NCBI RefSeq assembly: GCF_000019965.1 | Contig: NC_010571.1 | Location: 2,303,001 to 2,367,000, forward strand | Length of the DNA stretch: 64,000 bases | Source: Opitutus terrae PB90-1 | GTDB taxonomy: Bacteria; Verrucomicrobiota; Verrucomicrobiia; Opitutales; Opitutaceae | Reading direction: 5' to 3' | Shown: piece by piece, positions 34,433 through 60,818 of the stretch | Layout of the letters: each line of letters begins with the position of its first letter | Position numbering within the stretch: the first letter of the stretch is position 1 | Notes under the pieces: model-generated | Database searches by the model: none | What the model saw: only the letters and a program-made list of their open reading frames with translations | Told to the model about the DNA's origin: nothing | Position numbers and translations under genes: made by a program

Positions 34433-36886
34433 CTATTCCGCGCGGAGCGCGGTCATCGGATCGACGTGGGTGGCTTTGCGGGCCGGCCAGAAGCAGGCGA
34501 ACGCGGCGGTGGCGACGAGAACAATGGTGACCACCGGGAAGGCGAAAGGATCGAGCGTGCTGATGCCGATCAACACGTGCGACATGACGAAGGACACACC
34601 GAGGGCCATCACCAGGCCGAGCGCGAGACCGATGGCGGTGAGCCGCAGGCCTTCGCGCGAGACGAGCCGGACGATGTTGCGGCTGGTGGCGCCGAGTGCG
34701 ACGCGCACGCCGATTTCGCGGGTGCGGCTGGTCACGCCGTAGGCGACGACCGCGTAGAGTCCCAGGATCGCGAGCAGCAGCGCGATGCCGCCCTGGACGC
34801 CGGCGAGCACCGACCCGAAGCGGAACGGCATGAGCGCGAGCGGGCTGTTCAGCATGTGTTCATCCATCGCGATCGTGCCGTAGATCGGCAGATGCGGATC
34901 GAGTCCTTGAATCACCTGGCGGACCGGCGCGGCGAGCGCGTGCGGCGCCTGCTGCGTGCGCACGACCAGCGTGGCGGGCATGTTGTAGAACTGGGCGAAC
35001 GGACGGTAATAGTAGGGCCGCGGCTGCTCGCCGATCATGAGATATTTTCCCGTGGCGGCGACGCCGACAACCTCGATCGCGGGCCCGCCGCGCCAGAGCC
35101 GGAAGTGCTGGCCGATCGGATCCTTGCCCGGCCAGAAGGCGTTCGCCATGGCCTCGTTGATGACCGCCACTTCCGGCGCGCGCTCGTCGTCCGTCGGCAG
35201 CAGGTCGCGACCGCGGAGCAGCCGGATGCCAAAGGTCTTGAGGAACGACGGCTCGACGCCGGAGAACGCGACTGCGATGTGATCGTCCGGCACATGACCG
35301 GACGGATTGTCGGGCCAGTTGTCGCGCATCAGGATGCTCTGCGTGAATGGGACGTGCTGGGCCAGGCTCGCGGCTTCGACGCCGGGCAGCGCGCGGACAC
35401 GCTCGAGCAGGTCGCGCTGGAACTGCAGTCCGCGTTCCTTCGAATAGCCCTGGAGATTGAGATCGAACGACTGCATCAGCAGCCGGTCGGGGAGGAAACC
35501 GACGTCGGCGTGACGCGCGATGGCGAGGCCGCGCAGGAAGAGCACGGAGGCAATCAGCACGACGGCGGAGGTCGCGACCTGGCCGATCACGAGCAGATTC
35601 CGCAGCCGGTGGCGGCCCGGACCGGTCTGCCGGCCGGCGCCTTGTTTCAATCCTTCGTTCAAATCGATGCGCGACGAGCGCAGCGCGGGCACCAGTCCGG
35701 CGCCGACGCCGGCGCAGAACGAGACAAGCGCGGTAAAAGCCCACACCTGCCAGCTGATCGAGTCGTTCACCCGGATGGGAATATCACCGGCGGGCGTCAA
35801 GCTGCGCATCGCGTCGCCGCCCCACCACGCGAGGCTGTAGCCGACGATGCCGGCGAGGACGGCAAGCAGCACGCTTTCCGCGAGCAACAGCCGGACGATG
35901 CGCCAGCGGGAGGCGCCGAGGGCGGCGCGAACGACGAGCTCCTTCTCGCGCGCGAGCGCGTGGCTGCCCATCAGGTTCGCAACGTTGGCGCAGGCGATGA
36001 AGAGCACCAGCAGGACCAGCCCGGTGAAGAGGCAGCCGATGACCGGCGCGAGGTCGGCCATGACCGGATCGGGCCGCGCGTGCCGCTCGAGGATCGCCTG
36101 AAAACGGAAACCGCGGTGATCGTCGGGGAACTGTTGGGCGAAGCGCTGCGCGAACACCCCGAGTTCGGCGTTGGCTTCCGCGAGCGTGGCGCCCGGGGCG
36201 AGATGCGCGAGCACGCGCCACGCGCTCGAGCCGCGGTATTTGAAAAAGCCGTCGCCGTCGGGGCGCAACTGCGCATAGGTGCCGGACGGCACCCACAGGC
36301 TGACGCTGACGGAGTAGGAGAAGCTTTCGAAGCCGGGCTTCGCGACGCCGACGATCGTGAACGGTTTGGCGTTGATCAGCACGGAACGGCCGATGACGCG
36401 GGGATCGCCACCGAACTGAGTTTGCCAGTAACGGTGCGTGAGGACGGCGACGGGCGTGCCGGGCGGCATCGCGCCGTCGGCGGGTTGTAGCGGCCGGCCC
36501 AGGACGACGTTGACGCCCATGCGGGAGAACGCATCCGGGGTGACCGCTTCGATCCAGGTGCGTTCGGGCGATTGGCCGGGTGCGCTGACGTGCGCGGCCA
36601 TCGGCAGAAAGGCGACGTGGTCGGTCAGCGATTTGGAGCCGTCGCGGAGGTCCTGAAAATCGAGGAACGAGATCTGGTGCGGCAGATTGATCGCATTGCT
36701 CCGGCCGACGATCGCGACCAGCCGGTCGGGGTCGCGAACGTCCATCGGCTGGAGGAAGATCGCGTTCACCATCATGAAAATCTGGGTGTTCACCGCGATG
36801 CCGAACGCCAGCGTGAGCACGACGACGGTCGTGTAGCCGGGGAACTTGGCCATCTGACGCATGGCGTAGCGGAGGTCGGAGAGCAT
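34433..36886 (-). CDS. ADOP10: orphan FtsX/MacB-type permease, head of a six-gene run
   Basis: The protein is 817 residues from the ATG at 36886. An upstream ATG at 36940 would add 18 unlike residues and was rejected, because relatives begin M-L-S-D-L-R-Y-A. The copy resembles ADOP3 (ALMPFRFGSVLAGVQGG near the C-terminus, SRTREIGVRVALGATSRNIV). Domain 1 has LGRPLQPADGAMPPG. It ends in DPMTALRAE. A sigma-54-like element lies immediately upstream; its predicted transcription start would leave almost no leader. It is probably the first gene of ADOP10-ADOP5. Confidence 0.93.
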   Translation of the reverse strand: MLSDLRYAMRQMAKFPGYTTVVVLTLAFGIAVNTQIFMMVNAIFLQPMDVRDPDRLVAIVGRSNAINLPHQISFLDFQDLRDGSKSLTDHVAFLPMAAHVSAPGQSPERTWIEAVTPDAFSRMGVNVVLGRPLQPADGAMPPGTPVAVLTHRYWQTQFGGDPRVIGRSVLINAKPFTIVGVAKPGFESFSYSVSVSLWVPSGTYAQLRPDGDGFFKYRGSSAWRVLAHLAPGATLAEANAELGVFAQRFAQQFPDDHRGFRFQAILERHARPDPVMADLAPVIGCLFTGLVLLVLFIACANVANLMGSHALAREKELVVRAALGASRWRIVRLLLAESVLLAVLAGIVGYSLAWWGGDAMRSLTPAGDIPIRVNDSISWQVWAFTALVSFCAGVGAGLVPALRSSRIDLNEGLKQGAGRQTGPGRHRLRNLLVIGQVATSAVVLIASVLFLRGLAIARHADVGFLPDRLLMQSFDLNLQGYSKERGLQFQRDLLERVRALPGVEAASLAQHVPFTQSILMRDNWPDNPSGHVPDDHIAVAFSGVEPSFLKTFGIRLLRGRDLLPTDDERAPEVAVINEAMANAFWPGKDPIGQHFRLWRGGPAIEVVGVAATGKYLMIGEQPRPYYYRPFAQFYNMPATLVVRTQQAPHALAAPVRQVIQGLDPHLPIYGTIAMDEHMLNSPLALMPFRFGSVLAGVQGGIALLLAILGLYAVVAYGVTSRTREIGVRVALGATSRNIVRLVSREGLRLTAIGLALGLVMALGVSFVMSHVLIGISTLDPFAFPVVTIVLVATAAFACFWPARKATHVDPMTALRAE

Positions 36887-36896
36887 GCGGAGATGT

Positions 36897-36917
36897 ATTT
36901 GCACGCGCCGTGCCGCA
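36897..36917 (-). promoter_or_regulatory. Sigma-54-like promoter element upstream of ADOP10
   Basis: On the minus strand this reads GCGGCACGGCGCGTGCAAAT. The GG (-24, at 36913) and GC (-12, at 36901) are 12 bp apart as in sigma-54 promoters, and the core GGCAC-N5-GTGCAAA matches those at 47491-47511 and 60685-60706. The expected start would be near 36889, three bases before the ADOP10 ATG. Because GCAC-N5-GTGC is itself an inverted repeat, a dimeric operator is the main alternative. Confidence 0.55.
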
Positions 36918-37010
36918 TCCGTCGACATTTCGCTAGTCACGGTGCATCAGTATGATAAAATTGACGAGCCGTGGGCCGATGGCCCGTGTTGTTCGGAAAC
37001 GAAACGAATC

Positions 37011-37027
37011 GTTCCCACGGATGGGAC
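37011..37027. promoter_or_regulatory. TCCC-N6-GGGA palindrome (candidate activator site)
   Basis: TCCC at 37013-37016 and GGGA at 37023-37026 are separated by six bases. The centre is 118.5 bp upstream of the -12 base of the element at 36897-36917. The same motif has the same offset, within 1 bp, at 47594-47624 and 60788-60818. Confidence 0.5.
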
Positions 37028-37135
37028 GGCACCAAATCCGGCCGATTCAACGGACCGACCGCCGCTGAGGTTTCTTACGAGGCGCGCTCGCCGTTCCGGG
37101 CCGCCCGGCAGCCGGGCCTGCCGCCGCGAAACCTG

Positions 37136-37549
37136 CTAGCGCTCGATACGGGTGACGGACGAACCGATCAACTGCCAGCGACTACGCCGGTGGATCCACA
37201 CGTCGACGAAGCGCGCGCGGCCGGAGATGGGGCGGCCGGCGAACGTGCCGGTGAATTGGGAGCGACCCACGACGCAGGCCATCTCGCCCGTGCGGCGGAC
37301 GGTGAGGTCATCGATGCGCAGCTGGGCGAGCTTAAGTTCAGGGCGGAGGAAACCGGCGATGAACGTGCGCCGCGTGACCTTCCGACCATGCAGATCGATG
37401 CCGACGAAGTCGCGGGCGAGCAGAGCCCGCAGCGTTGCGGCGTCGCCAGTTCGCTCGGCGCGCGTGAGTTCGCGTTCACAGGCGAGCAGACTTTGGCGGT
37501 CGGTGGTCACGCGGTTGGACCGAGGCGTCGGGCGTTTTCCAGATTTCAT
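37136..37549 (-). CDS. DUF4440/SnoaL-like (NTF2-fold) protein
   Basis: The 137-residue protein has a basic N-terminal tail. The NTF2-like pattern is LLACERELTRAERTGDAATLRALLARDF, then VGIDLHGRKVTRRTFIAGF, VRRTGEMACVVGRSQFTGTF and a C-terminal FVDVWIHRRSRWQLIGSS. The family contains small cone-shaped enzymes and binding proteins, and the role here is unknown. A 249-bp gap with the sigma-54-like module separates it from ADOP10. The start at 37549 was chosen over a longer frame. Confidence 0.8.
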   Translation of the reverse strand: MKSGKRPTPRSNRVTTDRQSLLACERELTRAERTGDAATLRALLARDFVGIDLHGRKVTRRTFIAGFLRPELKLAQLRIDDLTVRRTGEMACVVGRSQFTGTFAGRPISGRARFVDVWIHRRSRWQLIGSSVTRIER

Positions 37550-37813
37550 GGGAATGTTTGGCGAGGGAAAGTTCGAACCGGTCAGCCCCAGGTGGACACT
37601 GAAGGACACAGACTCATATGGTCGTAAAAGGTCCGGTCGGCCGCCGATCAGAATGCCGCATCAGGAACGCATCACGGGCGTTCAACTTGGCCACAAAGGG
37701 CGCAGAAAGCACAGAATCGGGTTCCTACCATGTGCCTCTTGCGCGTGCGGGCCAGTGGGATGGAGCGAGCATCGGTTGCGGCGGAGCCGCTCTGTCCATC
37801 GGTGGTTCAGGTC

Positions 37814-38197
37814 CTACGCTTCGATCCGCTCGAATTTGAAGAGCACCGGGCGAAGGCCGTCGGTGCAGCAGGAGATCATTACGGTGGGATCGCCGGCGTG
37901 GATCTTGTGAATGATCGCTCGCAGGTCGGCCCACGCCCAGGTGCAGAAGCCCGGAGGCGGATCCCACGGGCTTTCGGTCATGAAGACCTGACCTTCTTCG
38001 AACCGGCCGCAGGCGGCCCGGCGTCCGTAAGGATGCTGATCATAGAGGTCCGCGTGGAACAGCTTTCGGAGAACGGTGATCCGGCACTTGTAGCGTTTCG
38101 CCGGCTCGGCGGTCGCAGTCGCCGCGGAGGCGAGGTTGGCGGTTGCGCCACACAGCGTCGCTGCAGTGGCGAGTTTCATGAATTCACGACGGTGCAT
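37814..38197 (-). CDS. TIGR04076-family protein with Tat signal
   Basis: The 127-residue protein starts with a twin-arginine signal (HRREFMKLATAATL). The mature part matches the TIGR04076 pattern: YKCRITVLRKLFHADLYDQ, GRFEEGQVFMTES, PPPGFCTWAWADLRAIIHKI, and ISCCTDGLRPVLFKFERIE. The conserved cysteines could bind metal. Most members I know lack an export signal, so this exported version is notable. The function of the family is not known. Confidence 0.85.
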   Translation of the reverse strand: MHRREFMKLATAATLCGATANLASAATATAEPAKRYKCRITVLRKLFHADLYDQHPYGRRAACGRFEEGQVFMTESPWDPPPGFCTWAWADLRAIIHKIHAGDPTVMISCCTDGLRPVLFKFERIEA

Positions 38198-38377
38198 GGG
38201 AGTTTGAGAAGTGGCGGGCTTCGCCGCCGCTGTTCGCGAGCTGAGTCGGGCGAGATGCACCCAGGCCCAACACAGCGGATTGGGTTCGGATCGGAGGTTT
38301 GACGGGAGCGCGTAGGCACACGGAAAGAAGATTCCTTCAGTCGCGGTATGATGCCGCTCCCCGAGCGTGGTCGATGA

Positions 38378-40219
38378 TTACTCTGTCTTTCCGCGCGAAA
38401 ATTGGTCGGCGTAGAACTGCTGCAGCAGGTTCTCCGGAATGCGGTCGACCGGATATGATCCGTGCATCTGGACGTGAACCCAGCGTCCGTCCCGCTTTTC
38501 CAGCACCCCTGTTTGGAAGACGTTCTGCAGGCAGTGTTCCTTGCCCTTGATCGTGGCGCAGTCATCCAGGTAGGTGGAATACCAGGCGACATCGCCGGAC
38601 CGGGAAAAGCGGATACGCAGGTCCCGAAACTCGAAGCGGGTGCCGCGGAAATCGGGATCGCGCCACTGGTCGGCGTAGCGTTTGAACGCATCCAAGCCGA
38701 TCACGGTGCTGTTGGAGAACACCCAGAAGTGAAAGAGATCGTCGCCCCATAGGTGGAACATGGCGTCGAAATCCTTTTCGATCGCCCAGCCAATGGCCTG
38801 TTCGATGCAGTGCTTCACGGCGGCGTAGTCGCGGGAAGGCGCCTGACCCGATTCGATGAGCCCGGGGGAGTCGGGGGGAAGCTGAGGAGTCGTCATGGGG
38901 CGGGGAGGATTGGTCAGAGCGAGGTTGTAGCCGTTGGCGAACCGGGCGAACACGCCCGTTTCGTTCATCGGCCGGTGCTGCAGGAAAACGAGCGCGACGA
39001 GATCCTCGCGCGGATCGATCTGGCAACGGGTCGTGTTCGAGCCGGACCAGCCGAACTGGCCCAGCGAGCACAACGTCGGGTCTTTCGCGGGATCGATGAC
39101 AACTTCGGCGCCGAGTCCAAATCCGCGCGAATCGGAGTAGGCGTGCGTGGGTTTGCTGGTGCGCGCGAGATGGTTCAGCGTCATGTATTCGACGGTCTTG
39201 CGTCCGAGGATTCGCACGCCGTCGAGTTCGCCGCCGTTGAGCAGCATCTGCGCGAAACGGGCGTAGTCACCCGTGGTGGAGAACAACCCGCCGCCGCCGC
39301 TCCGGATGCCCTGCCGCCGCCGCGCCACGTCGGCTTGGCCGGGCTCGTCGTTCACGAGCTGGTCACCCTGCCGGCGGTAGACGCTCGCGAGCCGCGGCAG
39401 TTTTTCCGCCGGCACGTCGAAGCTGGTGTCGACCATCCGCAGCGGGCGAAAGAGGCGCGCCTGGAGAAACTCTTCGAGATTCTGACCGGAGACGCGTTCG
39501 ATGATCGCGCCAAGAACATCCGTGCTGATGCCGTAGCGGAACGCGGCGCCGGGTTCGTGCGCGAGCGGCAGCTTGGCGGCGCGGGCGACGAACTCGTCGA
39601 GTGACGCGGCGGCCCACGGATTGTGGCGGCGGTAGAGTTGCGAGAGCACGTCCGTGTCGCCGAAATCGTAGGTGAACCCGGCGGTGTGCGAAAGGAGATG
39701 GCGGATACGAGGAGGCGTCTTGGGCTCGACGAGCTCCGGCGCGTCGACGGTGCCGCCGGTGAGGACGCGCACGTCCTTGAAGTCGGGCAGATAGGTCGCG
39801 ATCGGCGCGTCAAGGTCGAGCCGGCCCTCCTCGAACAGGATCATCGCGCCGACGGAGGTGATCAGCTTCGAGTTCGAAGCGATCCGGAAAATCGTGTCCT
39901 GCTCCATCGGTGCGCGCGTCTCGAGATCGCGCCAGCCGTAGGTGCGCCAGTCGGCGATTTGGCCGTGCCGAACCAGCAGCGTGACGAAACCGGAGCAGCG
40001 ACCCTCGTCGACGAGCTGGCGGAGATTGGCGTGGAGCCGGTCGAGCCGGTCGGGCGCGAAGCCGAGGTCGCGGGCGCTTCCGAGCGGGAGCGGGGCGGCG
40101 GCGTCGGTGGCGAGGGCAGCAGCGCAGGGTGCGCGCGAAACGCCGGCGAGTGCGACGAGGCAAAGCCACACGGGGAAGGCCCGCGGGTGTCGGGGTTGGA
40201 ACAACGAAAGCGGATGCAT
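38378..40219 (-). CDS. Exported serine beta-lactamase-fold hydrolase with C-terminal NTF2-like domain
   Basis: This 613-residue protein has a signal peptide (to about residue 36). Residues 45-450 form a class C beta-lactamase / esterase domain: the nucleophile motif S115-N-S-K118 in FRIASNSKLI, Tyr229 in RYGIS, HLLSHTAGFTYDF, and the late GQFGWSGSNTTRC region. Residues about 470-600 look like an NTF2/SnoaL-type domain (IGWAIEKDFDAMFHLWGDDL, VHVQMHGSYPVDRIPENL). The fusion is unusual. It is likely a periplasmic or secreted esterase or peptidase-like enzyme, with the substrate unknown. Confidence 0.9.
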   Translation of the reverse strand: MHPLSLFQPRHPRAFPVWLCLVALAGVSRAPCAAALATDAAAPLPLGSARDLGFAPDRLDRLHANLRQLVDEGRCSGFVTLLVRHGQIADWRTYGWRDLETRAPMEQDTIFRIASNSKLITSVGAMILFEEGRLDLDAPIATYLPDFKDVRVLTGGTVDAPELVEPKTPPRIRHLLSHTAGFTYDFGDTDVLSQLYRRHNPWAAASLDEFVARAAKLPLAHEPGAAFRYGISTDVLGAIIERVSGQNLEEFLQARLFRPLRMVDTSFDVPAEKLPRLASVYRRQGDQLVNDEPGQADVARRRQGIRSGGGGLFSTTGDYARFAQMLLNGGELDGVRILGRKTVEYMTLNHLARTSKPTHAYSDSRGFGLGAEVVIDPAKDPTLCSLGQFGWSGSNTTRCQIDPREDLVALVFLQHRPMNETGVFARFANGYNLALTNPPRPMTTPQLPPDSPGLIESGQAPSRDYAAVKHCIEQAIGWAIEKDFDAMFHLWGDDLFHFWVFSNSTVIGLDAFKRYADQWRDPDFRGTRFEFRDLRIRFSRSGDVAWYSTYLDDCATIKGKEHCLQNVFQTGVLEKRDGRWVHVQMHGSYPVDRIPENLLQQFYADQFSRGKTE

Positions 40220-40474
40220 GGAACGACGGCGGAGGAGCGGTTGCAGGACTGGCGCGGGCAGATGCTGCCGCGGACGGACTGGTCGAGCTGCCCTGCCACA
40301 CTGTTATTGTCGCGACTAGGTGAGCTGTGACGTGGTTTGAACCTAATCAATGAGGTGCAATGAACCCACGGCGGGGCTGGCGTATCGCGCCGCATCCAGC
40401 TCGACGCGCGTGACAGCGGACGGCGTCGCTGCGGCGCAGGGCGTGAATAATGGGTTGATCATCGATGGCCGCGC

Positions 40475-41383: not shown

Positions 41384-41539
41384 GGGCAACGGAAGGAGCG
41401 ATCAGCGACCTGCAATCGATGGCGACCGAACGGGAAAACATGGGGATCACCGACGAGCGGTTGCATAGCCGCAGCGCGTCCGCGCTGAAAGCTGCGGCGT
41501 TTCATCGGGCGATCGTGATCGCGGCGAGTGGTGCTTCCT

Positions 41540-43966
41540 TCATTCCGCTCGTAGCGCGTCAACCGGATCGACTTTCGTTGCGCGACGCGCCGGCAGCCAG
41601 CAGGCGAGAAGCGACACCAGCGCCAGGCCGAGCGTGACCGCACCGAAGGTGAGCGCGTCGAATGGGCTCACACCATAGAGGAAGCCGGCGAGCAGGCGCG
41701 TCACGGCGAACGCGCCGAGCAGGCCGACGCCGATACCCAACACGGCGACGCGCATGCCCTGGCCGATGACCAGTCGGAGCACGTCGCCGGTGCTGGCGCC
41801 GAGCGCCATGCGCACGCCGAATTCCTGCGTGCGCTGGCTGACGACGTAGGCGACCACGCCGTAGACGCCCATGGCGGCGAGCACGAGCGCGACGATCCCG
41901 AGCCAGGTGAGCAATCGCGAAGCGAGGACCGGCGCCATGAACGCCGCCTTGATGTAGTCGTCCATCGTGATCGTGGCCCAGACCGCGACGTTGGGATCGA
42001 GCTGGCGGAGCTCGCGCTGGAGCGTGGCACCGAAAAGCGACGGATCGCCTCGGGTGCGCAGGCACAGTCCGAGATTGAGATCCCACACACCCTGGCGGAA
42101 CGGGGTGTAGAAGAAACCGCGTGGCGGTTCGTTGAGCGACCGGTATTTTCCGTCTTTCGCGACGCCGACCACGGTGAGCTCGCGCCAAGCGGCTTTGAAT
42201 TTGTGGCCGATCGCATTCTGGCCGGGCCAATACCGCTTCGCCATCGTTTCGTTGATGATCGCGACCTTGAGCGCGGAGTCGTCGTCGTGATCGGTGAAGT
42301 CGCGGCCGTCGACGAGCGGGATGCCGAGCGTCGCGAAATAGCCCGGAGACACGATGCTGTAGGGAAGGCTCGAATCCTCGCCGGGTTTTTGTTCATGGCC
42401 CTGGACGGTGACGCCGTGTTGCGGACCGCCCTCGAAGCCCAGCGGGAACCAGCTGCTGAGCGCGACGGACTCGACGCCGGGCAGCCTGGCGAGCCGCTCC
42501 TGCAGCCGGGCGTAGAAGACTTTCCCGGTGGCTTCGTTGTAGCCGTTCATGCCGATGCGGAGGCCGGCGAGCAGCACGCGGTCGGGTTTGAAACCGAGTT
42601 CGGCGTGGTAGGCACGTTGCGCGCTCTTGATGCACAGGCCGGCGCCGACGAGCAGGACGAGCGACAGCGCGACTTCGCCGAGCACGAGCAGACTGCGCAA
42701 CCGCTGGTGCGAGGAACCGCTGGAAGACGTGCGGCCGCCATCCTTCAGCGTGGAGTTGAGGTCGGGCCGGGAAGCGCGCAAGGCCGGGATCAATCCGAAC
42801 AGGACGCCGGTCACGATCGAGCCGCATACGGTGAACGCGAGCGTGGTTGTGTTGATCTCCGTGCCGATGCCAATCGGCAGCGGAGTCGGCGGCTGCCAGC
42901 GCTTCAGCAGATCCACGGCCCAGAACGCGATGACGATGCCGAGTCCGCCGCCGAGGCCGGCGAGCAGCAGGCTTTCCGTGAGCAGCTGGCGCACGAGCCG
43001 GACGCGGCTGGCGCCGACGGCGAGTCGGATGGCGATTTCCTTTTGCCGGCCGGCGGCGCGCGCCAGCAGCAGGCTGGCGAGGTTGGCGGCAACGATCAGC
43101 ACGACGCCGAGACTCACGGCGAGCAGAATGGCCAGCACCGGGCCCATGATCGGCTGCACCCCGTAGGGCGCATGAAGGAAATCGAGCACGTGAAGTCGGA
43201 TCTGCTGGTTGGTATTCGGATAAGACTTCTCCAGGCGCGCGGCGACGGCATCGACGACGGCCTGCGCCTGCTCGCGGCTGACGCCGGGTTGGAGCCGGGC
43301 TTGCGTGTGGAGCCAGTGATCGTCGCGCTGCTCGAGCGAGCCCATGTTGGCCACTGCGTGGTGCATCGAGAGCGGCGCCCAGAAATCGCAGATCAATCCA
43401 CTCATCGTGCCGCGGAAGGAGGCCGGCGCGACGCCGATGACCGTGAACGCGTGGCGGTTGAGCTGAACGGCCTTGCCGATCACGCTCGGATCGCCGTTGA
43501 ACTGGCGTCGCCAGAACCGCTCGCCGAGCACGAGCACCGGATTGCCGCCTGGTTTCTGATCCTCGTCGGGGAGAAACAGCCGGCCGAGCAGCGGTTGCAC
43601 GCCGAGCAGGTCGAAAAAGTTTGCTGTCGCGATCTGGCCATAGAGCCACGTCGACTGCTCGCCGATGGTCAGGCAGGCGGGCGTGACCTGCGAGGCGATG
43701 ATGCCGGCGAACACGTCGCGCTGTTCGCGATAGTCCTTGATATCGGGCAGCGAACAGGTGTCCCACATCTGGTCCGCGTGCGAGGTGGTGAGCACGACGA
43801 TCTCCTCCTGGCGGTGCACGCCGGGCAGCGGGTTGAGCAGGATGCCTTGGATCCAGCAGAACACGGTGGTGGTGGCGCCGATGCCGAGCGCGAGCGAGAG
43901 CACGGCGATGGCGGTGAAGCCAGGAGCCTTGGCGAGTTGCCGGAGAGCGAAGCGGAGGTCGGACAC
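41540..43966 (-). CDS. ADOP11: orphan FtsX/MacB-type permease
   Basis: The protein is 808 residues from a GTG at 43966 ([17 protein letters not shown], the usual start of the family). It is most like ADOP4. Domain 1 has LGVQPLLGRLFLPDEDQKPG and RQFNGDPSVIGKAVQLN; the core is GASRVRLVRQLLTESLLLAG; the C-terminal part has QRTQEFGVRMALGASTGDVL. It ends in VDPVDALRAE. It stands alone between the DUF3788 gene and the TPR gene. Confidence 0.93.
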   Translation of the reverse strand: MSDLRFALRQLAKAPGFTAIAVLSLALGIGATTTVFCWIQGILLNPLPGVHRQEEIVVLTTSHADQMWDTCSLPDIKDYREQRDVFAGIIASQVTPACLTIGEQSTWLYGQIATANFFDLLGVQPLLGRLFLPDEDQKPGGNPVLVLGERFWRRQFNGDPSVIGKAVQLNRHAFTVIGVAPASFRGTMSGLICDFWAPLSMHHAVANMGSLEQRDDHWLHTQARLQPGVSREQAQAVVDAVAARLEKSYPNTNQQIRLHVLDFLHAPYGVQPIMGPVLAILLAVSLGVVLIVAANLASLLLARAAGRQKEIAIRLAVGASRVRLVRQLLTESLLLAGLGGGLGIVIAFWAVDLLKRWQPPTPLPIGIGTEINTTTLAFTVCGSIVTGVLFGLIPALRASRPDLNSTLKDGGRTSSSGSSHQRLRSLLVLGEVALSLVLLVGAGLCIKSAQRAYHAELGFKPDRVLLAGLRIGMNGYNEATGKVFYARLQERLARLPGVESVALSSWFPLGFEGGPQHGVTVQGHEQKPGEDSSLPYSIVSPGYFATLGIPLVDGRDFTDHDDDSALKVAIINETMAKRYWPGQNAIGHKFKAAWRELTVVGVAKDGKYRSLNEPPRGFFYTPFRQGVWDLNLGLCLRTRGDPSLFGATLQRELRQLDPNVAVWATITMDDYIKAAFMAPVLASRLLTWLGIVALVLAAMGVYGVVAYVVSQRTQEFGVRMALGASTGDVLRLVIGQGMRVAVLGIGVGLLGAFAVTRLLAGFLYGVSPFDALTFGAVTLGLALVSLLACWLPARRATKVDPVDALRAE

Positions 43967-43972
43967 GAGCAG

Positions 43973-47490: not shown

Positions 47491-47511
47491 GTTTGCACGC
47501 GCTGTGCCAAG
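47491..47511 (-). promoter_or_regulatory. Sigma-54-like promoter element upstream of ADOP12
   Basis: On the minus strand this reads TTGGCACAGCGCGTGCAAAC. GG (-24, 47507) and GC (-12, 47495) have the correct 12-bp separation, giving an expected start near 47483 and a leader of about 250 bases. The module, with its upstream palindrome, is repeated at 60685-60818. An inverted-repeat operator (GCAC-N5-GTGC) is the alternative reading. Confidence 0.65.
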
Positions 47512-47593
47512 CACCGGCCCGTACGGTTTGTGCCTGCCGTTCAGCCGGTTGCGCTGTTTTTGGCACGCCCGGGGCCGAGAACCGTTGCGAACA

Positions 47594-47624
47594 TGGAACG
47601 AGACGGTCCCGCGAGCGGGATCGT
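47594..47624. promoter_or_regulatory. Conserved 31-bp block with TCCC-N6-GGGA (candidate activator site)
   Basis: The block matches 60788-60818 at 27 of 31 positions by eye. Its core is TCCC (47607-47610), six bases, GGGA (47617-47620), centred 118.5 bp from the -12 base. This is a typical distance for an enhancer-binding protein of sigma-54. Confidence 0.6.
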
Positions 47625-52926: not shown

Positions 52927-55359
52927 CTATTCCGCGCGGAGGGCATCGAGCGGGTTGATGCGCGTGGCGCGTTGCGCGGGCAGCCAGCAGGCGAACACGG
53001 CGACCGAGAACAGAAGCACTGCCACCAGCGCGATCGTGAGCGGATCCGATGCGGCCATCCGCGGCATGAAGCCCTGCAGCACGAGATTGAGTGCGTAGGC
53101 CACCACGGCGCCGAGGCCGAGTCCGATCGCGGTGAGCGTCATGCCCCCGCGGAGCACGAGCGTGAGCACGTCGCGCGGCCGCGCGCCGAGCGCCAGCCGG
53201 ATGCCAAACTCGCCGGTGCGCTGCGCCACGAGATTCGAGATCACGCCATAAAGTCCGACCGAGGCGAGCAGCACGCCGAGCAACGCAAACGCGCCGATCG
53301 TTTGATTCACCAGCACGATGTTGTGGGAATAGCGGTCGATCGCCTCCGGAATCGTGTAGAGCTCCTGGACGGCGACGTCGGGATCGATGTCCGCCACGGC
53401 GCGACGGACTTCATTCTTGAACGTGGCGGGCGAAGGGCCTCGCACCAGCAGGAACATGTAGCCCCACGGCTCGTGCACCATCGGCTTGTAGACCTGGAAC
53501 AGCGTGTCCGGATTGCTGAGCTGCACGGCGAAGCCGATGTCGCGCACCACGCCGATCACCTCGCGCCAGACGAGGACGTTGTCCTGCCGATCGCCGATGC
53601 GTTTGCCGAGTGCGCTTTGGCCGGGCCAGAAATGCCGCGCCATCGTTTCATTGATGATGACGACGGGCGGAGAGCTGGCGTTGAGCTCCTCCGGGAACAA
53701 CCGGCCCTCGAGCAGCGGGATCCCCATGGTCTGGAAATAGTCGGACGCGACCAGCGTGTAGCCGCCGACGGGTTGCTTGGCAGGATCGTCGGAGGTCTGG
53801 CCGTCGACCTGAATGGGGACGCTCTTGGAATAGCCGAACAACGGAGCCGTCGACGCGATGCCGGTGCTTTCCGCCTGCGGGATCTGCTTGAGCCGGCGGG
53901 CAAGTTTCTCGATCGCGAGCCGGCGCTTGTCCTCGCTGTTGTAAGTCGACTGTTCGGGCAGATGGATGTTGGCGGCGAGCACGCGATCGGTGTCCCAGCC
54001 ATTGTTGGCGTGGAGCAGCGCATTGAACCCGCGCAGCATCACGCCGGCGGTGGCGAGCAGCGCGAGGGCCGACGCGACCTGCGCGACGATGAGGCTATGG
54101 CGGAACCGGTGCGTCGAACGGCTCGAGCTGGAGCCGCGGGTCTGTTGCTTGAGCGTGCTGACCACATCGCCCCGCGACGCCATCCAGGCCGGCACGAGTC
54201 CGAACACCAGGCCGCTGAACACGGCGGCCAGCAGCGTGAGCAGCAGGATCGGCACATCGAGGTTCAAGGTGAGATGCTCGGTCCCGCCGATCTGGATCTG
54301 GCTCTCGAGGAGGGCGTTCATCCAGATGCCGACCAGCACGCCCAAGCCGCCGCCGGCGAGCGCGAGCAGCATGGATTCGGTGAGCTGGTGAAGAATGAGC
54401 CGGGCGCGCGAGGCGCCGAGCGCGGAACGGATGGCGAGATCGCGGGTGCGCGCGGCGGCGCGGGCGAGCTGGAGATTCGCGAGGTTGAAGCACGCGATCA
54501 GCAGCACGACGATGCCGACGCCGCACAGCAGCCACATCATGAACCGCCCTGTGCTGTCCATAACGACCTTGTGCAGCGGCTCGGGCCGGACCGTGCGGCC
54601 GGCGCTGTGCTGCGGATAGTCCTGGGCCCAGCGAGCGAACACCGGCTGCGCCTGGGCCGTGGCCTGCTCGACCGTCATGCCCGGAGCGAGCCGGCCGATG
54701 GCGAAGAAAAGCCGGTTGGTGCGATCCTGCACGATGTGCTGGGGCAACGTGATCGGGCGCCAGAGATCAACGGGGCCGAAGAACAGCGGATAGCGGAAGC
54801 TGGCGGGCATGACGCCGATGATGGTGACCTGCTCCGCGTTGAGCCGGAGCGTGCGACCGATGACGTTGGGATCGCCGCCGAGCCGGCTCTGCCAGAACGA
54901 GTGACTGAGGATCGCGACCTGGTTGCGGCCGGGCGTTTCCTCGTCGGCGGTGAACGCGCGGCCGAGCATCGGCTGCACCCGAAACGTCGAGAAGAACTCG
55001 GCGGACGCGTCGACGGCGCGGAGCCGCTCGGCGGGCTGGCCGGGTTCGGCCCAGGCATTGTTCCACCCGGCGAGCGTCGTGACCGATTCGAAGGCGGCAT
55101 GTTCGCCGTTCGCCACCTGGACGCGCAGTTCCTCGACCTCCGGGAAGCCGTAGCCGTCAGGCTGGCCCTGCGCATTGAGCGCCTGAATGAGCAGCATGCG
55201 ATCGGGCTCCGGGTAGGGCGCGCTGCGGAACAGCAACACGTCGACGAGCGTATACATCGAGGTGTTCACGCCGATGCCGAGTGCGAGGGTGATCAGCGCG
55301 ACGAGCGTGAACCCCGGAGTCTTGATCAGGGACACGAGAGCGTGACGGAGCGTGGACAT
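52927..55359 (-). CDS. ADOP15: orphan FtsX/MacB-type permease
   Basis: This 810-residue copy is the closest relative of ADOP16: both have EPWGYMFLLVRGP or TPWSYFQVVIRGP in the second periplasmic domain, and QRTGEFGIRLALGAR or QRMGEFGIRVALGAR before the last segments. Domain 1 has VQPMLGRAFTADEETPG and SRLGGDPNVIGRTLRLN. The core is GASRARLILHQLTESMLLAL. It ends in RINPLDALRAE. Confidence 0.93.
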   Translation of the reverse strand: MSTLRHALVSLIKTPGFTLVALITLALGIGVNTSMYTLVDVLLFRSAPYPEPDRMLLIQALNAQGQPDGYGFPEVEELRVQVANGEHAAFESVTTLAGWNNAWAEPGQPAERLRAVDASAEFFSTFRVQPMLGRAFTADEETPGRNQVAILSHSFWQSRLGGDPNVIGRTLRLNAEQVTIIGVMPASFRYPLFFGPVDLWRPITLPQHIVQDRTNRLFFAIGRLAPGMTVEQATAQAQPVFARWAQDYPQHSAGRTVRPEPLHKVVMDSTGRFMMWLLCGVGIVVLLIACFNLANLQLARAAARTRDLAIRSALGASRARLILHQLTESMLLALAGGGLGVLVGIWMNALLESQIQIGGTEHLTLNLDVPILLLTLLAAVFSGLVFGLVPAWMASRGDVVSTLKQQTRGSSSSRSTHRFRHSLIVAQVASALALLATAGVMLRGFNALLHANNGWDTDRVLAANIHLPEQSTYNSEDKRRLAIEKLARRLKQIPQAESTGIASTAPLFGYSKSVPIQVDGQTSDDPAKQPVGGYTLVASDYFQTMGIPLLEGRLFPEELNASSPPVVIINETMARHFWPGQSALGKRIGDRQDNVLVWREVIGVVRDIGFAVQLSNPDTLFQVYKPMVHEPWGYMFLLVRGPSPATFKNEVRRAVADIDPDVAVQELYTIPEAIDRYSHNIVLVNQTIGAFALLGVLLASVGLYGVISNLVAQRTGEFGIRLALGARPRDVLTLVLRGGMTLTAIGLGLGAVVAYALNLVLQGFMPRMAASDPLTIALVAVLLFSVAVFACWLPAQRATRINPLDALRAE

Positions 55360-55366
55360 GGGGACG

Positions 55367-55496
55367 GGGCCCAGAGCTAAGAGACTGGAGCTGTGAGCAA
55401 ACAGTCGGTTGAGAATTGAGCGTTGAGAGTTGAGAGAGGCGGAACTCGGGACTTGAACTTCAACGTTCCACTTCAGCTGCCCCGCGGTCGCAGGGG
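55367..55496. repeat. Hybrid spacer: heptamers plus right half of spacer element
   Basis: The left part carries GTTGAGAATTGAGCGTTGAG heptamer-like units where other spacers have GTTTAAG words. The right part is the familiar CTTGAACTTCAACGTTCCAC. This shows that the two repeat types occupy equivalent places. The spacer ends at the ADOP16 stop codon. Confidence 0.7.
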
Positions 55497-57908
55497 CTAT
55501 TCAGCCCGGAGCGCCTCGACGGGATCGGCGGTGGCGGCCTGACGGGCGGGCAGCCAGGTGGCAACGAAGGCGACGACGAAGATCGCGATGCACGTGAGCC
55601 CGAGAATCGTGTAGTTCTGCGCAATCAGCGGGCCGAGACTCTGCCGCAACGCGAGTCCGAGCGCATAGGCCGCGACCGCGCCGATCGCCAAGCCGACAAG
55701 GGTCAATCGCAGGCTGCGCAGCAGGACCAGACCCATGACGTCGATCTGGCGCGCGCCGAGGGCGACCCGGATGCCGAACTCGCCCATGCGCTGGCTGACG
55801 TTGTGCGAGACGATGCCGTAGAGCCCAACGCTTGCGAGCACGAGCCCGAGCAGCGCAAACGCGAATAGCACGCCATTGATCACGACCAGATTGTGCAGGA
55901 ACTGATCGCGCATATCCGCCAGCGTCCAAATGAATCGGGGAGCCACGTCGGGCGAGACCTGGGCGATGGCGCGGCGCAGGTCACCGTCGAAGCGCTTCGG
56001 GTTCGGCCCGCGAATCACGACTTGGAAATACGACCAGGGGGTGTGCGTCATCGGGGTGAAATACTGCATCCGCGCGACGGGTTCGGTGAAGTTGATGGCG
56101 TCCTCCACGTCAGCGACGACGCCGATCACCTCGCGCAGCGTGGTTTTGCCGTCACCGGCCCGCGTGCCGAGGCGCTTGCCGATGGCGCTCTCCTTGGGCC
56201 AGAAGTTATCGGCCAGGGACTTGTTGACCACCACCCGCTCGGGTGAGGTGTGCGAGACGTTTTCGGGGAAGGTCTGGCCCTCAAGCACGCGAATCCCGAG
56301 CGCCTTGAAAAACCCGGGCGTAATGAGATATCCGCTACCCTTGGGCAAGTTGGTCTGGCTCGAGTCCTGGCCTTCCTTGAAGATATCATTGCCCGCGGTG
56401 CTGCCGCCGATCGGTAGCGTGGACGCGATGGCGGCGACCTCGACGCCCGGAATGGCGGAGAGCCGGCGGATGATCTCGTCCTGGAAGGCACGGGTTTGCT
56501 CCGTGTTATAGGAGCGTTCGTCCACCTGCAGGTTGGCGGTGAGGATCGACTCGGTGTCCCAACTCGGGCGCGCGTTCAGCGTGCGGTCGAGTCCGTAGAT
56601 CATCATGCCGGCGACGGAGAGGAGCGCGAGCGACAGCGCCACCTGGCCGACGACGAGCAACCCGCGGATCCAGCCCTGGTGGCGACCGCCGGTGGTGCCG
56701 CGCGTCTGCTGTTTCAGGATGTCGTTGATGTCGGCTCGCGCCGCCAGCCAGGCGGGGACGAGGCCGAAGCCGAGGCCGGCGACGATCGAGATGGCGGCGT
56801 TGAACGCGAGCACGTGCCCGTCAATGGGCAGATGGAGCGTGCTGAAGAGCCCGAGCCGAATATTCCGGCCGATGAGCAGATTGCTCCAGTGCGCGACCAG
56901 CAGGCCAAGCGCGCCGCCGATGACGGACAGCAACAGCGACTCGACGAGCTGCTGACGGATGAGCCGCCATCGGCTGGCGCCAAGCGCGGAGCGAATCGCC
57001 AGATCGCGGAGCCGGCTGGCGGCGCGGGCCATTTGCAGGTTGGCGAGATTGGCGCACGCGATCGCGAGGATGGCAGCCGCCAGACCGATCTGCAGCGTGA
57101 GGATCGCGACGTTGGCCGAGCCGCCGACGCGGCCGGCAAGCTGCATTCGAAAATGGTAATTCTGATACAGCCGCGGATGATCCTTGGCCCACCGTTCCGC
57201 CAGGGGCGCGATGCTGGCGAGCGCCGCCACGGGGGTCACGCCGGGGGTGAGGCGCACGACCACGCCGAACTCGCGGCGGTCGCGCGCGGTCACCTGGTTG
57301 TCGGCGGGCACCAGCGGACGGAAATACTGGCCTTCGCCAAACATAAAAATCGTCGAGTAGGGCTCTGGCAGCACGCCGATGATCGTGAACACGCGGCCGT
57401 TGATTCGCATGGTCTGACCGACGGCCTCCGGATTTGCGCCGAACTGCCGCCGCCACAGATTTTCGGTGATCAGGACAACCGCGTCGCGGCCGGCGACGCA
57501 TTCGTCGGCGGAGAAGGTGCGCCCCAGCAGCGGCGGCGTTTCGAGCGCCTTGAAGAGCGCGGCGTCGACCGCGTTGCCCTGCATGGATTCCGGCAGCTGG
57601 CCGGGCAGCGTGACGGTTTCCAGCAGGCCGGATTGCATGGCGATCACGGCGAAGGCCGGACTCTGATGCGCCCGCAATTCCTCGATCTCCGGCACGGAGA
57701 GGCGGAGGAACTCCGCCTGCGGCGTCTGGCCGTTGAGGTTGACGATCGACTCCGGGCGGGGGAACGGCGCCGAGGCGAACATCAGCGTGTTCATCAACGA
57801 ATACATCGACGAGTTGACGCCGATGCCGAGCGCGAGCGTGACGATCGCGATGAGGGCGAAGCCCGGAGACTTCAGCAGACTGCGGAAGGCGTAGCGGAGG
57901 TTGAACAT
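55497..57908 (-). CDS. ADOP16: orphan FtsX/MacB-type permease
   Basis: This 803-residue copy pairs with ADOP15. Segment 1 reads TLALGIGVNSSMYSLMNTLM, with the Tyr also found in ADOP15 (NTSMYTLVDVL). Domain 1 has LGRTFSADECVAGRDAVVLI, the core is GASRWRLIRQQLVESLLLSV, and the second periplasmic domain has FWPKESAIGKRLG. It ends in [10 protein letters not shown]. Confidence 0.93.
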   Translation of the reverse strand: MFNLRYAFRSLLKSPGFALIAIVTLALGIGVNSSMYSLMNTLMFASAPFPRPESIVNLNGQTPQAEFLRLSVPEIEELRAHQSPAFAVIAMQSGLLETVTLPGQLPESMQGNAVDAALFKALETPPLLGRTFSADECVAGRDAVVLITENLWRRQFGANPEAVGQTMRINGRVFTIIGVLPEPYSTIFMFGEGQYFRPLVPADNQVTARDRREFGVVVRLTPGVTPVAALASIAPLAERWAKDHPRLYQNYHFRMQLAGRVGGSANVAILTLQIGLAAAILAIACANLANLQMARAASRLRDLAIRSALGASRWRLIRQQLVESLLLSVIGGALGLLVAHWSNLLIGRNIRLGLFSTLHLPIDGHVLAFNAAISIVAGLGFGLVPAWLAARADINDILKQQTRGTTGGRHQGWIRGLLVVGQVALSLALLSVAGMMIYGLDRTLNARPSWDTESILTANLQVDERSYNTEQTRAFQDEIIRRLSAIPGVEVAAIASTLPIGGSTAGNDIFKEGQDSSQTNLPKGSGYLITPGFFKALGIRVLEGQTFPENVSHTSPERVVVNKSLADNFWPKESAIGKRLGTRAGDGKTTLREVIGVVADVEDAINFTEPVARMQYFTPMTHTPWSYFQVVIRGPNPKRFDGDLRRAIAQVSPDVAPRFIWTLADMRDQFLHNLVVINGVLFAFALLGLVLASVGLYGIVSHNVSQRMGEFGIRVALGARQIDVMGLVLLRSLRLTLVGLAIGAVAAYALGLALRQSLGPLIAQNYTILGLTCIAIFVVAFVATWLPARQAATADPVEALRAE

Positions 57909-57931
57909 GGCGAGTGCAGACCTGCGGTCTG

Positions 57932-58020
57932 CGAGTTGAAGAAGGAAGTTTAGGTTGAAGTGAGCAGTGGCGGAGAGGGTGACTTAAACTTCATCTTTTC
58001 ACTTCGACTCGCCGCAGGCG
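57932..58020. repeat. ADOP spacer element (imperfect inverted repeat)
   Basis: The left part is GTTGAAGAAGGAAGTTTAGG and the right part CTTAAACTTCATCTTTTCAC, imperfectly complementary. CGCC-GCA-GGCG (58010-58020) abuts the ADOP17 stop codon, exactly as at 26813-26823 and 29294-29304. Confidence 0.8.
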
Positions 58021-60558
58021 CTACTCGGCCCGGAGCGCGGTCATCGGGTCGACGCGCGTGGCGCGCTGGGCGGGCACGAGCGTGGCGACAAACGCCACGG
58101 CGGTGAGCAGCAGCGCGACGGTCGTGTAGGTGAGCGGATCGAGCGGGCTGATCTCGAACAGCTGCGTGGCGATGCCGTCGCGGGCGAGCACGGCGACGGT
58201 GGCGGTGAGTGCGAGTCCAGCCCCCAGTCCGATGAGCAGCTGCACGCCGCCCTGGCGGAGCACCATCTGCAGGATCCGCTGGGTGTCGGCGCCAAGCGCC
58301 ATGCGAATGCCGAATTCCTGCATCCGCTGGTTGACGGAGAAACTCATCACGCCGTAGAGGCCGACCGACGAGAGCAGCACGGCGATGCCGCCGAAGAGCG
58401 TGAACATGCTGGCGATAATCCGGTTCACGCCGAGGAAGCTCTCCTGGTTCACCCGCGCGGTGCCGACGAAGTAGAGCGGCAGGTTGGCGTCGACCTTGTT
58501 GACCTCGCGTTGGAGCGTGGTCGCCAGGACGGCGGCGCGCCGCTCGATGTCCGCGGCATTGTTAGCCCGCGGCCGCACGATGACGGTGGCGAACTGCTGC
58601 TGCACCGGGCCGGGCAGGGCCGGACCGAAGACGGACGAGAAATACGGCACGTAGAACCCGGTGTCGTCCACCTGCGGATTGTTGAACGGCCCGAGCATCC
58701 GGACATTGGAGACGACGCCGACGATCGTGCGCCACGGTCCGAACAGCTGGCCGTTGTTGCCGACGGTGCGGAAGCGACGGCCAAGCGCGCTCTCATTGCC
58801 AAAGTGCTTGTGCGCGAAAGCAGCGTTCACGATGGCGATCGGCTGCTTGGCATCGGTGTCGTCGAGTGCGAAGTCGCGGCCCTCGATGATCCGCGCCTTG
58901 AGCGTCTCGAAGTAGCCTTCGGACACCTGCTCGAAGTTGGTGTTCGGCCGGTCCTCGTCCTTGGCGTAGGCGCGGCCGTCGATCTCGATGCGACCAAAGC
59001 CGGAGAAGGTCATCCGGAAGCGGTTGGTAAGGGCGGCGCCCTCGTATTCGGGATTCGCGCGCAGCTCACGGAGCAGCCGGTCGAAAAACAGTTTTCGCGC
59101 CTCGGGCGTTGGATAGTCGCCCTCCATCAGGGCGAGTCGCGCGCTCAGGATCGCCCCGTTGTCGTAGCCCCAGGCGATCTGGTTCTGGCGCAGGATTGAT
59201 TTCAGCTGGAGCAGCGCGCCGACCAGCAAGAGGCTGCTGACGAGGATCTGCATGACGACCAGCGAGCGGGTGATGACGGTGACGGCGCGGCTGGTGTTGC
59301 CCCGGCCGGACTCCTTCAACGCGTCGACGGCGCTGGCGCGCGAGGACATCCACGCGGGAACGAATCCGGACACGAGCGCCGCGAGCATCGTGGCGCTGAC
59401 CACGAAGACGAGCACGGGCACGTCGATGTTGAATACGATGTAGGCGGGAATGGGATTTTCGCCGGAGTGCGTGGCGGCGTTGAGGTATCCCGTCGCCCAC
59501 GAAGCGAGGCCGATGCCGACAGTGGCGCCGAGCGCGGCGACGAGCAGCGACTCGGTCAGCATCTGCCGGATCAGCCGGATCCGGGTCGCGCCGAGCGAGG
59601 AGCGGATCGCGAGTTCCTTCGCGCGCAGCGTCGCGCGCGCGAACTGCATGTTCATCACGTTGACGCAGGCGATGAGCAGCAGGCCGACGCAGAAGCCGAG
59701 CATCGTCCAGAGCAGGCCCTTGATGTTGGGCGGCGTGAAGGTCTTGATCAGCGGCTGGATCACCGCCGTGTCGAACTTCTTGTTCGTGTCGGGAAACGCG
59801 GCGGCGAGCTGCTTGGCGAGGCCGGAGAACTCGGCCTGGGCCTGGTCGAAGCTGACGCCGGGCTTGAGCAGCGCGAGCACGCCCGGCTGATTGCCCTGCG
59901 CGTTCGGGCTGTTGCGCGGGGTCGGCGGATACTCGGCGTAGAGCGGGATCCACAGCTCCTCGTTCACCGGAAAGGCGAAGCCCTGGGGCATCACGCCGAC
60001 GATGGTCGCCGGTTTGCCGTTGATCCGGATGCTGCGGCCGATCACTTCGGGCGAGCCGCCAAAATCGCGCTGCCAGAGTTGGTAGCTGATCAGCGTGATC
60101 TTCTCCGCGCCCGGCTGATCGTCGCGCGGCGCGAAATCGCGGCCGATCACCGGCCGCACGCCGAGAATCCGGAAAAAGTCGGCGGAGACGTAGGCGCCCG
60201 TGTAGCGCTTGGGCGTCCCATCAGCGGTGACGTTGACGGTCGCGCCGTTGATGAACGCGGCCATCATCTCGAACGAGGTCTGCTGCTCGCGCATCGCCTC
60301 GTAATCGAGCGAGAAAATCTGGCTGTTGAAGCCGAACGGATTCGACTGCGTCGGATCGACCACCTGAACGCCGGCGAGCCGGTCGGCGTTGGGAAAGGAA
60401 AAGCCGCGCAGCATCGTGCCATTGACGACGCTGAACATCGACGTGACGGCGCCGATACCGACCGCAAGGACGGTGACGGCGAGCGTGCAAAAACTCTTTT
60501 CCTTGATGAGCACGCGGAGACCGATCCGCAGATCCTGGAAGAACGTTTGAATGAGCAT
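58021..60558 (-). CDS. ADOP17: orphan FtsX/MacB-type permease, head of a five-gene run
   Basis: This 845-residue copy is the sister of ADOP12. It has a longer lead (FFQDLRIGLRVLIKEKSFC), LLRGFSFP or MLRGFSFP after segment 1, the core GATRIRLIRQMLTESLLVAA, FGNESALGRRFRTVGNNG, and the ending VDPMTALRAE. It starts the run ADOP17-ADOP13, in which spacers are 93-137 bp. A sigma-54-like element and a palindrome lie in the 361-bp gap upstream, giving a predicted leader of about 120 bases. The ATG follows ACACTCCC. Confidence 0.93.
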   Translation of the reverse strand: MLIQTFFQDLRIGLRVLIKEKSFCTLAVTVLAVGIGAVTSMFSVVNGTMLRGFSFPNADRLAGVQVVDPTQSNPFGFNSQIFSLDYEAMREQQTSFEMMAAFINGATVNVTADGTPKRYTGAYVSADFFRILGVRPVIGRDFAPRDDQPGAEKITLISYQLWQRDFGGSPEVIGRSIRINGKPATIVGVMPQGFAFPVNEELWIPLYAEYPPTPRNSPNAQGNQPGVLALLKPGVSFDQAQAEFSGLAKQLAAAFPDTNKKFDTAVIQPLIKTFTPPNIKGLLWTMLGFCVGLLLIACVNVMNMQFARATLRAKELAIRSSLGATRIRLIRQMLTESLLVAALGATVGIGLASWATGYLNAATHSGENPIPAYIVFNIDVPVLVFVVSATMLAALVSGFVPAWMSSRASAVDALKESGRGNTSRAVTVITRSLVVMQILVSSLLLVGALLQLKSILRQNQIAWGYDNGAILSARLALMEGDYPTPEARKLFFDRLLRELRANPEYEGAALTNRFRMTFSGFGRIEIDGRAYAKDEDRPNTNFEQVSEGYFETLKARIIEGRDFALDDTDAKQPIAIVNAAFAHKHFGNESALGRRFRTVGNNGQLFGPWRTIVGVVSNVRMLGPFNNPQVDDTGFYVPYFSSVFGPALPGPVQQQFATVIVRPRANNAADIERRAAVLATTLQREVNKVDANLPLYFVGTARVNQESFLGVNRIIASMFTLFGGIAVLLSSVGLYGVMSFSVNQRMQEFGIRMALGADTQRILQMVLRQGGVQLLIGLGAGLALTATVAVLARDGIATQLFEISPLDPLTYTTVALLLTAVAFVATLVPAQRATRVDPMTALRAE

Positions 60559-60684
60559 GGGAGTGTGTGGGTGACGATTGCCGACGGCCGAACGCGAATT
60601 GCCGATGGAATCAATGGAGAGACGGAAGGGCGTGCGGGGGCAGGCCGGGGACGCGTGGGGGCACAGGGCAATTCACGGGCCGGT

Positions 60685-60706
60685 GTTTTGCACGGCGTGT
60701 GCCAAG
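60685..60706 (-). promoter_or_regulatory. Sigma-54-like promoter element upstream of ADOP17
   Basis: On the minus strand this reads CTTGGCACACGCCGTGCAAA. GG (-24, 60702) and GC (-12, 60690) are 12 bp apart, and the start is predicted near 60678. About 130 bp of this non-coding gap (60685-60818) is recognisably homologous to 47491-47624. The rest of the gap, 60819-60919, shows nothing recognisable. Confidence 0.65.
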
Positions 60707-60787
60707 CTTCGGCGACAGCCGTGGCTGCGTTTATTCAGCGAGTTACGCGTTTCTTCCCGCTGGCCGGAGCGGGGGCCGTCGCAAAGG

Positions 60788-60818
60788 TGGAACGAGGCCG
60801 TCCCGCGAATGGGATCGT
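60788..60818. promoter_or_regulatory. Conserved 31-bp block with TCCC-N6-GGGA (candidate activator site)
   Basis: This is the second copy of the block at 47594-47624. TCCC (60801-60804) and GGGA (60811-60814) are centred 117.5 bp from the -12 base of the element at 60685-60706. The flanking GGAACGAG and GATCGT are conserved too. Confidence 0.6.

Follow-up and report, generated by a model that had tools for sequence, protein, structure and literature searches.

The stretch of DNA analyzed here (the window: 64,000 nucleotides, positions 2,303,001 to 2,367,000 of contig NC_010571.1 of Opitutus terrae PB90-1) carries part of an array of ADOP permease genes (TIGR03434), and three short regulatory modules, A, B, and C, stand on the minus strand upstream of three groups of these genes. 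A sequence-only reading of the window had described each module as GGCAC-N5-GTGCAAA accompanied by TCCC-N6-GGGA, with centers 118.5, 118.5, and 117.5 bp from the -12 base. When the sequence was read directly, the former element was recovered in all three cases and the three distances matched exactly. The former element has GG at -24 and GC at -12 with an offset of 12 bp, the pattern that marks members of the sigma-54 promoter class. The latter is referred to below as the upstream activator site (UAS), being the predicted site of an activator.

In module A, the first UAS (UAS1) lies at 37013..37026, a second copy with the half-site T[CT][CT]C (UAS2, at +22) at 36991..37004, and the -24/-12 element, GGCACGGCGCGTGCA, at 36900..36914, with the -12 base at 36901 and a predicted start at 36889. 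The corresponding positions for module B are 47607..47620 (UAS1), 47585..47598 (UAS2, also at +22), and 47494..47508 (-24/-12 element; -12 base 47495, predicted start 47483). For module C they are 60801..60814, 60779..60792 (again at +22), and 60689..60703 (-12 base 60690, predicted start 60678). Module C also has an IHF-like site at 60733..60745, which agrees with WATCARN4TTR at 12 of 13 positions in reverse orientation (register -67) and may bind a protein of this type. All of these features are on the minus strand.

The permease genes follow on the same strand, in operons whose extents are predicted. Behind module A runs a series of six ADOP open reading frames (ORFs) above the TIGR03434 cut-off (34433-36886, 31832-34258, 29305-31719, 26824-29214, 24331-26733, and 21860-24271), and a seventh (17611-20046) lies beyond a 1.8-kb gap. 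Module B is followed by two permeases (44700-47231 and 41540-43966) and module C by five (58021-60558, 55497-57908, 52927-55359, 50377-52806, and 47749-50283), recognized as ORFs and by the same model.

We assessed whether such modules could arise by chance. In the window, TCCC-N6-GGGA alone was weak evidence (three seen, shuffle mean 1.1, three reached in 7 of 100 shuffles), and the -24/-12 pattern with up to three mismatches showed no enrichment (32 seen vs 39.7 expected). The pair of UAS and -24/-12 site was found three times in the window and not once in 150 order-2 Markov sequences. Genome-wide, the -24/-12 pattern alone with up to two mismatches was uninformative (66 matches vs 81 in the reversed control), and the two-part motif was therefore adopted. 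A whole-genome search for this motif (spacing 84-114) gave nine matches, against none for the reversed pattern. When the allowed spacing was shifted to 53-83, no match appeared, and a shift to 115-145 gave a single one that reused the UAS of module C. The pairing is highly non-random, and chance was rejected as the source of the module pairs. The exact sequence TTGGCAC-N6-TGCAAA occurs three times in 5.96 Mb, in modules B, C, and G (the last lying outside the window, as described below), while module A deviates at the first two bases. A -24/-12 site at genome position 2893865, with one mismatch, was dropped, since its 18-kb locus contained no UAS at the right upstream distance.

The array runs past the window edge, and four further modules (D, E, F, and G) lie just outside, on the minus strand, with -12 bases at genome positions 2367649, 2378456, 2388812, and 2392646. 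TCCC-N6-GGGA occurs seven times in the surrounding 132 kb, and each of the seven has a minus-strand -24/-12 site 112-115 bp away. In operons of predicted extent, module E heads four permeases, D one, C five, B two, and A six or seven. Module F heads an HlyD-type adaptor, a stand-alone ABC ATPase, and three permeases; the ATPase is a separate ORF (2386502-2387206) and is not fused to a permease. Module G heads a small membrane-protein ORF, followed by an activator and a kinase. The ADOP cut-off was exceeded by 39 matches in the genome, 22 of them in the module-bearing array. Two of the nine genome-wide matches to the two-part motif lie outside the array, at 28146 and 3900199. Behind the former, 2.3 Mb from the array, come a small ORF that looks exported, a gene for an ABC ATPase, and the beginning of an outer-membrane efflux protein (PF02321, E 6.4e-5), this TolC-type channel ORF being partial; the latter heads a 117-residue hydrophobic ORF. 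The members of a tripartite set (adaptor, MacB-type ATPase and permease, TolC-type channel) were all found in the source genome, and they may assemble physically. It may be noted that an ADOP gene (24101-26674) lies just upstream of site 28146.

The genome contains rpoN, with one match (E 5.8e-58). The sequence-only reading had proposed looking for an enhancer-binding protein as well, and a gene for a candidate of this kind was found inside the array together with a histidine kinase, behind its own module G. PF00158 matched 13 times in the genome, the last three matches being weak, and one of the 13 is this array gene (ORF 2390951-2392444 of the genome). Its product has a REC (receiver) domain, a Sigma54_activat AAA+ domain, and a Fis-type helix-turn-helix, which is the domain order of the NtrC type. 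The kinase gene comes next after the activator, with HATPase over its cut-off, PAS_4 just over its own, and HAMP below its own. By hydropathy the kinase has two helices separated by 11 residues; in relatives with both N-terminal helices over the threshold, the gap is 5-16 residues, while in many relatives the scan placed only one helix over the threshold, in three none, and in one it gave a false gap of 89 residues. There are two IHF/HU-family genes in the genome, one of which (3400760-3401029) lies about 3.5 kb from rpoN.

The motif was then compared with the activator across 150 family genomes drawn from a larger group. It occurred in 68 of them, with 231 sites against 19 for the reversed control. 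The genomes were grouped by the best E-values of the activator among the matches listed: identity was at least 75% in 50 genomes, 51-67% in 9, and lower (about 40%), or without a match, in 91. All 50 genomes of the first group carried the motif (207 sites, control 6), compared with 14 of the 91 in which no ortholog reached 50% (20 sites, control 12); one of these 91 gave no match at all, and another is counted there though its activator start appears at a contig end. For the group of at least 75% against the others, Fisher's test gave p of about 6e-25, a value that ignores kinship.

For the anatomy of the modules, we used 132 unique modules (9 from O. terrae and 123 others) with lengths of 124-129 or 136-140. 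The 100 regions fetched for this set are all from genomes whose ortholog reaches 75% or more, so the counts lean that way. In the logos, columns that the search had prescribed (TCCC, GGGA, GGCMC, and TGC) have no independent weight. T at -26 and A at -11 and -10 are conserved although the pattern left them free. In 85 unique modules, the inner columns of the UAS palindrome, also free, were kept (A at +4 in 67 and T at +6 in 77) and a weaker UAS copy begins at +22, where T[CT][CT]C was found in 114 of the 132. Between the elements, conservation is near zero; hence, homology of the whole region does not explain the match.

The spacing of the UAS is bimodal, with peaks at 127 and 137 that differ by one helical turn (150 family sites of 222 from other genomes). 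Among these 150, 89 fall in 125-129 and 39 in 136-140, compared with 2 in 130-135 and 20 elsewhere. The UAS accordingly lies roughly 100-150 bp upstream and is helically phased. Modules of adaptor, permease, and TolC genes belong nearly all to the short class, those of the activator being divided into 9 short and 10 long, and the bimodality may therefore reflect inheritance in part. A/T-rich and TT columns stay at a constant distance from the promoter in both spacing classes. An IHF-type bend site is usual with a distant UAS, though not universal. A match of at least 11/13 to the IHF consensus was present near -56 or, reversed, near -68 in 76 of the 132 modules, and other positions gave at most 18; modules A, B, and C score 11, 11, and 12 of 13 in the reverse orientation, where IHF might bind.

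The same modules bear on the alternative offered in the sequence-only reading, a dimeric operator: a repressor or activator that acts with sigma-70 would bind GCAC-N5-GTGC as a dimer, and the -24/-12 resemblance would be accidental. Perfect GCAC-N5-GTGC palindromes do occur at A, B, C, E, and G, five of the seven sites in the array. However, the palindrome is kept in just 30 of the 132 modules, with base -15 variable (C50 T35 G31 A16), and the conserved T-26, A-11, and A-10 were not imposed by the search. The operator alternative found no support and appears extremely improbable to us.

The genes behind the 132 modules were examined next. The first recognized gene within 2.3 kb was an adaptor in 30, a permease in 27, the activator in 19, an ATPase in 15, and TolC in 7, so that one of these five kinds came first in 98 modules. 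After the 15 first-gene ATPases, TolC followed in 11 and a permease in 4. A shared regulon for the permease array, marked as conjecture in the sequence-only reading, is borne out by these genes. Of the 19 activator modules, 17 begin with a small hydrophobic ORF, and 11 of these ORFs contain DY, often as DYxRR, in a scan made without a control. No Pfam match was obtained for three of these small ORFs (two O. terrae copies and one from a relative).

This gene content also speaks to the possibility that the modules are functionless relics of tandem gene duplication, copied along as upstream DNA. The array does look like a product of duplication, and additional bases near the UAS are common to modules B and C. 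Against this, the motif is present in 33 of the 49 sampled genera and the DNA between the elements is not conserved. Moreover, the modules precede unrelated genes (adaptor, ATPase, TolC, and activator), and pure duplication was rejected for that reason. We give the relic explanation next to no weight.

For the wider distribution, we used the best 80 of 521 confirmed stretches with an activator relative. Of these 80 named loci, 73 have the kinase immediately behind the activator, 64 contain an ATPase, 51 an adaptor, and 41 an ADOP scoring 100 bits or more. Among the sources are Opitutaceae, Pelagicoccus, Wenzhouxiangella, Catenovulum, Pseudoalteromonas, a metagenome-assembled genome (MAG) of Acidiferrales, and many Bacteroidales. 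A relaxed motif gave six matches in 36 distant loci, three of them from one Steroidobacteraceae MAG, against none in the control. It seems consistent with the sequences that the UAS changes together with the DNA-binding domain in distant relatives. Upstream of -24/-12-like sites of Lysobacterales, Pelagicoccus, and acidobacterial relatives, the palindromes TGTCC..GGACA, GTGCC..GGCAC, and TGTTCG..CGAACA were noted. In seven relative loci, the module heads a small exported-looking protein with a motif of the P-A-[YF]-x-V type; the ORF after it is, in most of these loci, presumably of the Smr type.

Several observations weigh against reading the modules as sigma-54 promoters of one regulon under the array activator. 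Module D, with GGCCC in place of GGCAC, was paired only once the pattern had been relaxed, and in module E the second half-site is missing. The forward IHF register is strong only in G (12/13) and borderline in F (10), the best match being in the reverse register for A, B, C, and D (13 in D) and in neither for E. The strict motif is missing in five of the nine genomes with a 51-67% ortholog (present in four, with 4 sites and control 1), and among the 80 named loci it occurs only under Opitutaceae-, Opitutia-, or Verrucomicrobia-type titles. No recognized regulon gene was found downstream of 34 of the 132 modules; 25 of the 34 have a small hydrophobic ORF near the promoter, of which one tested was TonB_C-like (PF03544), and the remaining nine may include chance matches and modules cut by contig ends. 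Six of the 27 permease matches start more than 0.8 kb away and two score below 50 bits, and 17 of the 39 over-cut-off permeases lie outside the module-bearing array. Finally, the activator loop reads GAFTDA and not GAFTGA, and an RpoN pull-down in Dickeya found no RpoN with a GAFTDA protein, according to the accessible part of PMC10714721; PMC4641369, in its accessible part, counts GAFTDA among the variants expected to maintain activation. A forward IHF site fixed in every module had also been considered; it was discarded, as the three window modules do not have it and the reverse register is better for A-D.

The GAFTDA loop and the Dickeya result, along with the 13 PF00158 matches (three of them weak), would suit promoters that are of the sigma-54 type and driven by another activator, with the GAFTDA protein of the array acting as a repressor or helper. 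Yet the motif tracks orthologs of this very protein, in 50 of 50 genomes, and a module stands before its own operon. In addition, GAFTDA is found in 75 of 80 activator relatives, Bacteroidales included, and GAFTGA in just five. We regard a different activator as highly unlikely.

The best explanation, which we hold with high confidence from the sequence evidence, is that all three modules are sigma-54 promoters which depend on an enhancer and belong to a single regulon. The proposal of sigma-54 promoters with an enhancer site is strongly supported by rpoN, the REC-AAA+-Fis activator in the array, and the 50/50 co-occurrence of motif and activator. A histidine kinase that has two membrane helices and hardly any loop on the outside would sense a signal in the membrane or envelope and phosphorylate its partner, the NtrC-type response regulator encoded in the same array. 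The regulator would bind TCCCATTTNYGGGA and the weaker copy 22 bp apart, about 120 or 130 bp upstream, while an IHF/HU-type protein would bend the DNA between these sites and the promoter. The AAA+ domain would then open the sigma-54 polymerase complex at -24/-12, for transcription from the predicted start. The output would be a MacAB-TolC-like export system supplied in pieces, namely an adaptor, a stand-alone ABC ATPase, and many duplicated FtsX-type permeases (the ADOPs), with a TolC-type channel and a second ATPase encoded elsewhere in the chromosome. The regulator operon, which would also encode the small membrane protein, probably activates itself. The system likely serves defense against envelope-active compounds or repair of envelope damage.

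A more specific picture is put forward tentatively, and taken as a whole it strikes us as possible rather than probable. It is that of a permease-switching exporter, in which about 20 interchangeable FtsX permeases would share a single adaptor, one or two stand-alone ATPases, and a single TolC-type channel. An intramembrane-sensing kinase would turn all of them on together, its activity being set by the undescribed small membrane protein of the DYxRR type whose gene comes first in the regulator operon, and the same wiring would recur in Verrucomicrobiota, gammaproteobacteria, Acidobacteriota, and Bacteroidota, with a UAS of its own in each.

Like the array, NtrBC, ZraSR, AtoSC, and PrsKR combine a REC-AAA+-Fis regulator with an adjacent kinase and a module before their own operon, and NtrC-type systems likewise have a tandem UAS about 120 bp upstream, an IHF-like site, and a -24/-12 promoter. 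The array differs from them in the GAFTDA loop and in its target, an array of FtsX permeases. Identity of the activator with PrsR, NtrC, AtoC, or ZraR was rejected, the scores being below the cut-offs. The activator remained under the cut-off for all 25 NCBIfam models listed (of 75 matched), including AtoC (387 of 714 bits) and NtrC (382 of 558.6), and did not reach that of the PrsR PEP-CTERM regulator (TIGR02915; 368.2 vs 502.6 bits).

On the output side, MacAB-TolC and the darobactin exporter DarBCD also consist of an HlyD-type adaptor, a MacB-type ATPase, an FtsX permease, and an outer-membrane channel, and the adaptor matched the DarC model over positions 10-415 of 417. The array adaptor (89 of 450 bits) and the ATPase at 28 kb (242 of 375) both score below the Dar cut-offs. 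In MacB, the ATPase is fused to the permease; here, in contrast, the ATPase is separate and 22 permeases stand in one array. BceRS-type systems have an OmpR-type regulator. BceRS-BceAB (PMC3023708, accessible part) resembles the array in having an intramembrane-sensing-looking kinase beside an FtsX-type ABC permease, and the kinase of the array shows two helices and a very short outside loop (11 residues) by hydropathy alone. It differs from the array, which has an NtrC-type regulator, sigma-54-like promoters, an adaptor, and a TolC-type channel.

ADOP permeases were named as orphans, without an ATPase and without a known role. The conserved regulon connects these permeases with a single adaptor, with specific ATPases, with a TolC-type channel, and with a single two-component system; it predicts which partners they have and offers a way to search for the inducing signal. 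The definition of the UAS is sharp enough for regulon members to be listed in related genomes, and it points to small uncharacterized membrane proteins. As far as its accessible text goes, PMC12316311 (PLoS One 2025) reports enrichment of sigma-54 promoters for COG0577 permeases in Opitutia, gammaproteobacteria, and Bacteroidia and for COG1136 ATPases in Opitutia, and presents this as the first evidence for such a link. The connection between promoter and permease is hence already known at survey level. For these genes, that text gives neither a cognate activator nor a UAS or a spacing. The pipeline by which the survey selected activators retained GAFTGA proteins only, and the GAFTDA regulator of the array would therefore drop out, which suggests that GAFTGA-only filters miss a widespread activator class. 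In the literature searched, most subscription journals aside, we found no published description of the activator, of its site, of the phased enhancer geometry, or of the regulon at the level of genes. What appears to be newly defined is an envelope-transport regulon, with a textbook-like sigma-54 enhancer system and an unusual output.

Some smaller observations concern individual genes of the array. A divergent ADOP on the plus strand (2392875-2395292) starts right next to the UAS of module G, and the array scan gave no plus-strand -24/-12 site for it. The predicted start of module A (36889) lies 3 nucleotides before the ATG at 36886 of ADOP10, and that of module F lies 5 nucleotides before the ATG of the adaptor; the mRNAs of these two genes may therefore be leaderless. 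Of the 30 adaptor modules, 27 would have a leader of 3-19 nucleotides if the first in-frame ATG is taken. Between the permeases of modules B and A, the window encodes a serine beta-lactamase-family protein with a SnoaL-like domain (38378-40219), and two proteins of the metallo-beta-lactamase fold are encoded at 560-1798 and 8038-9054.

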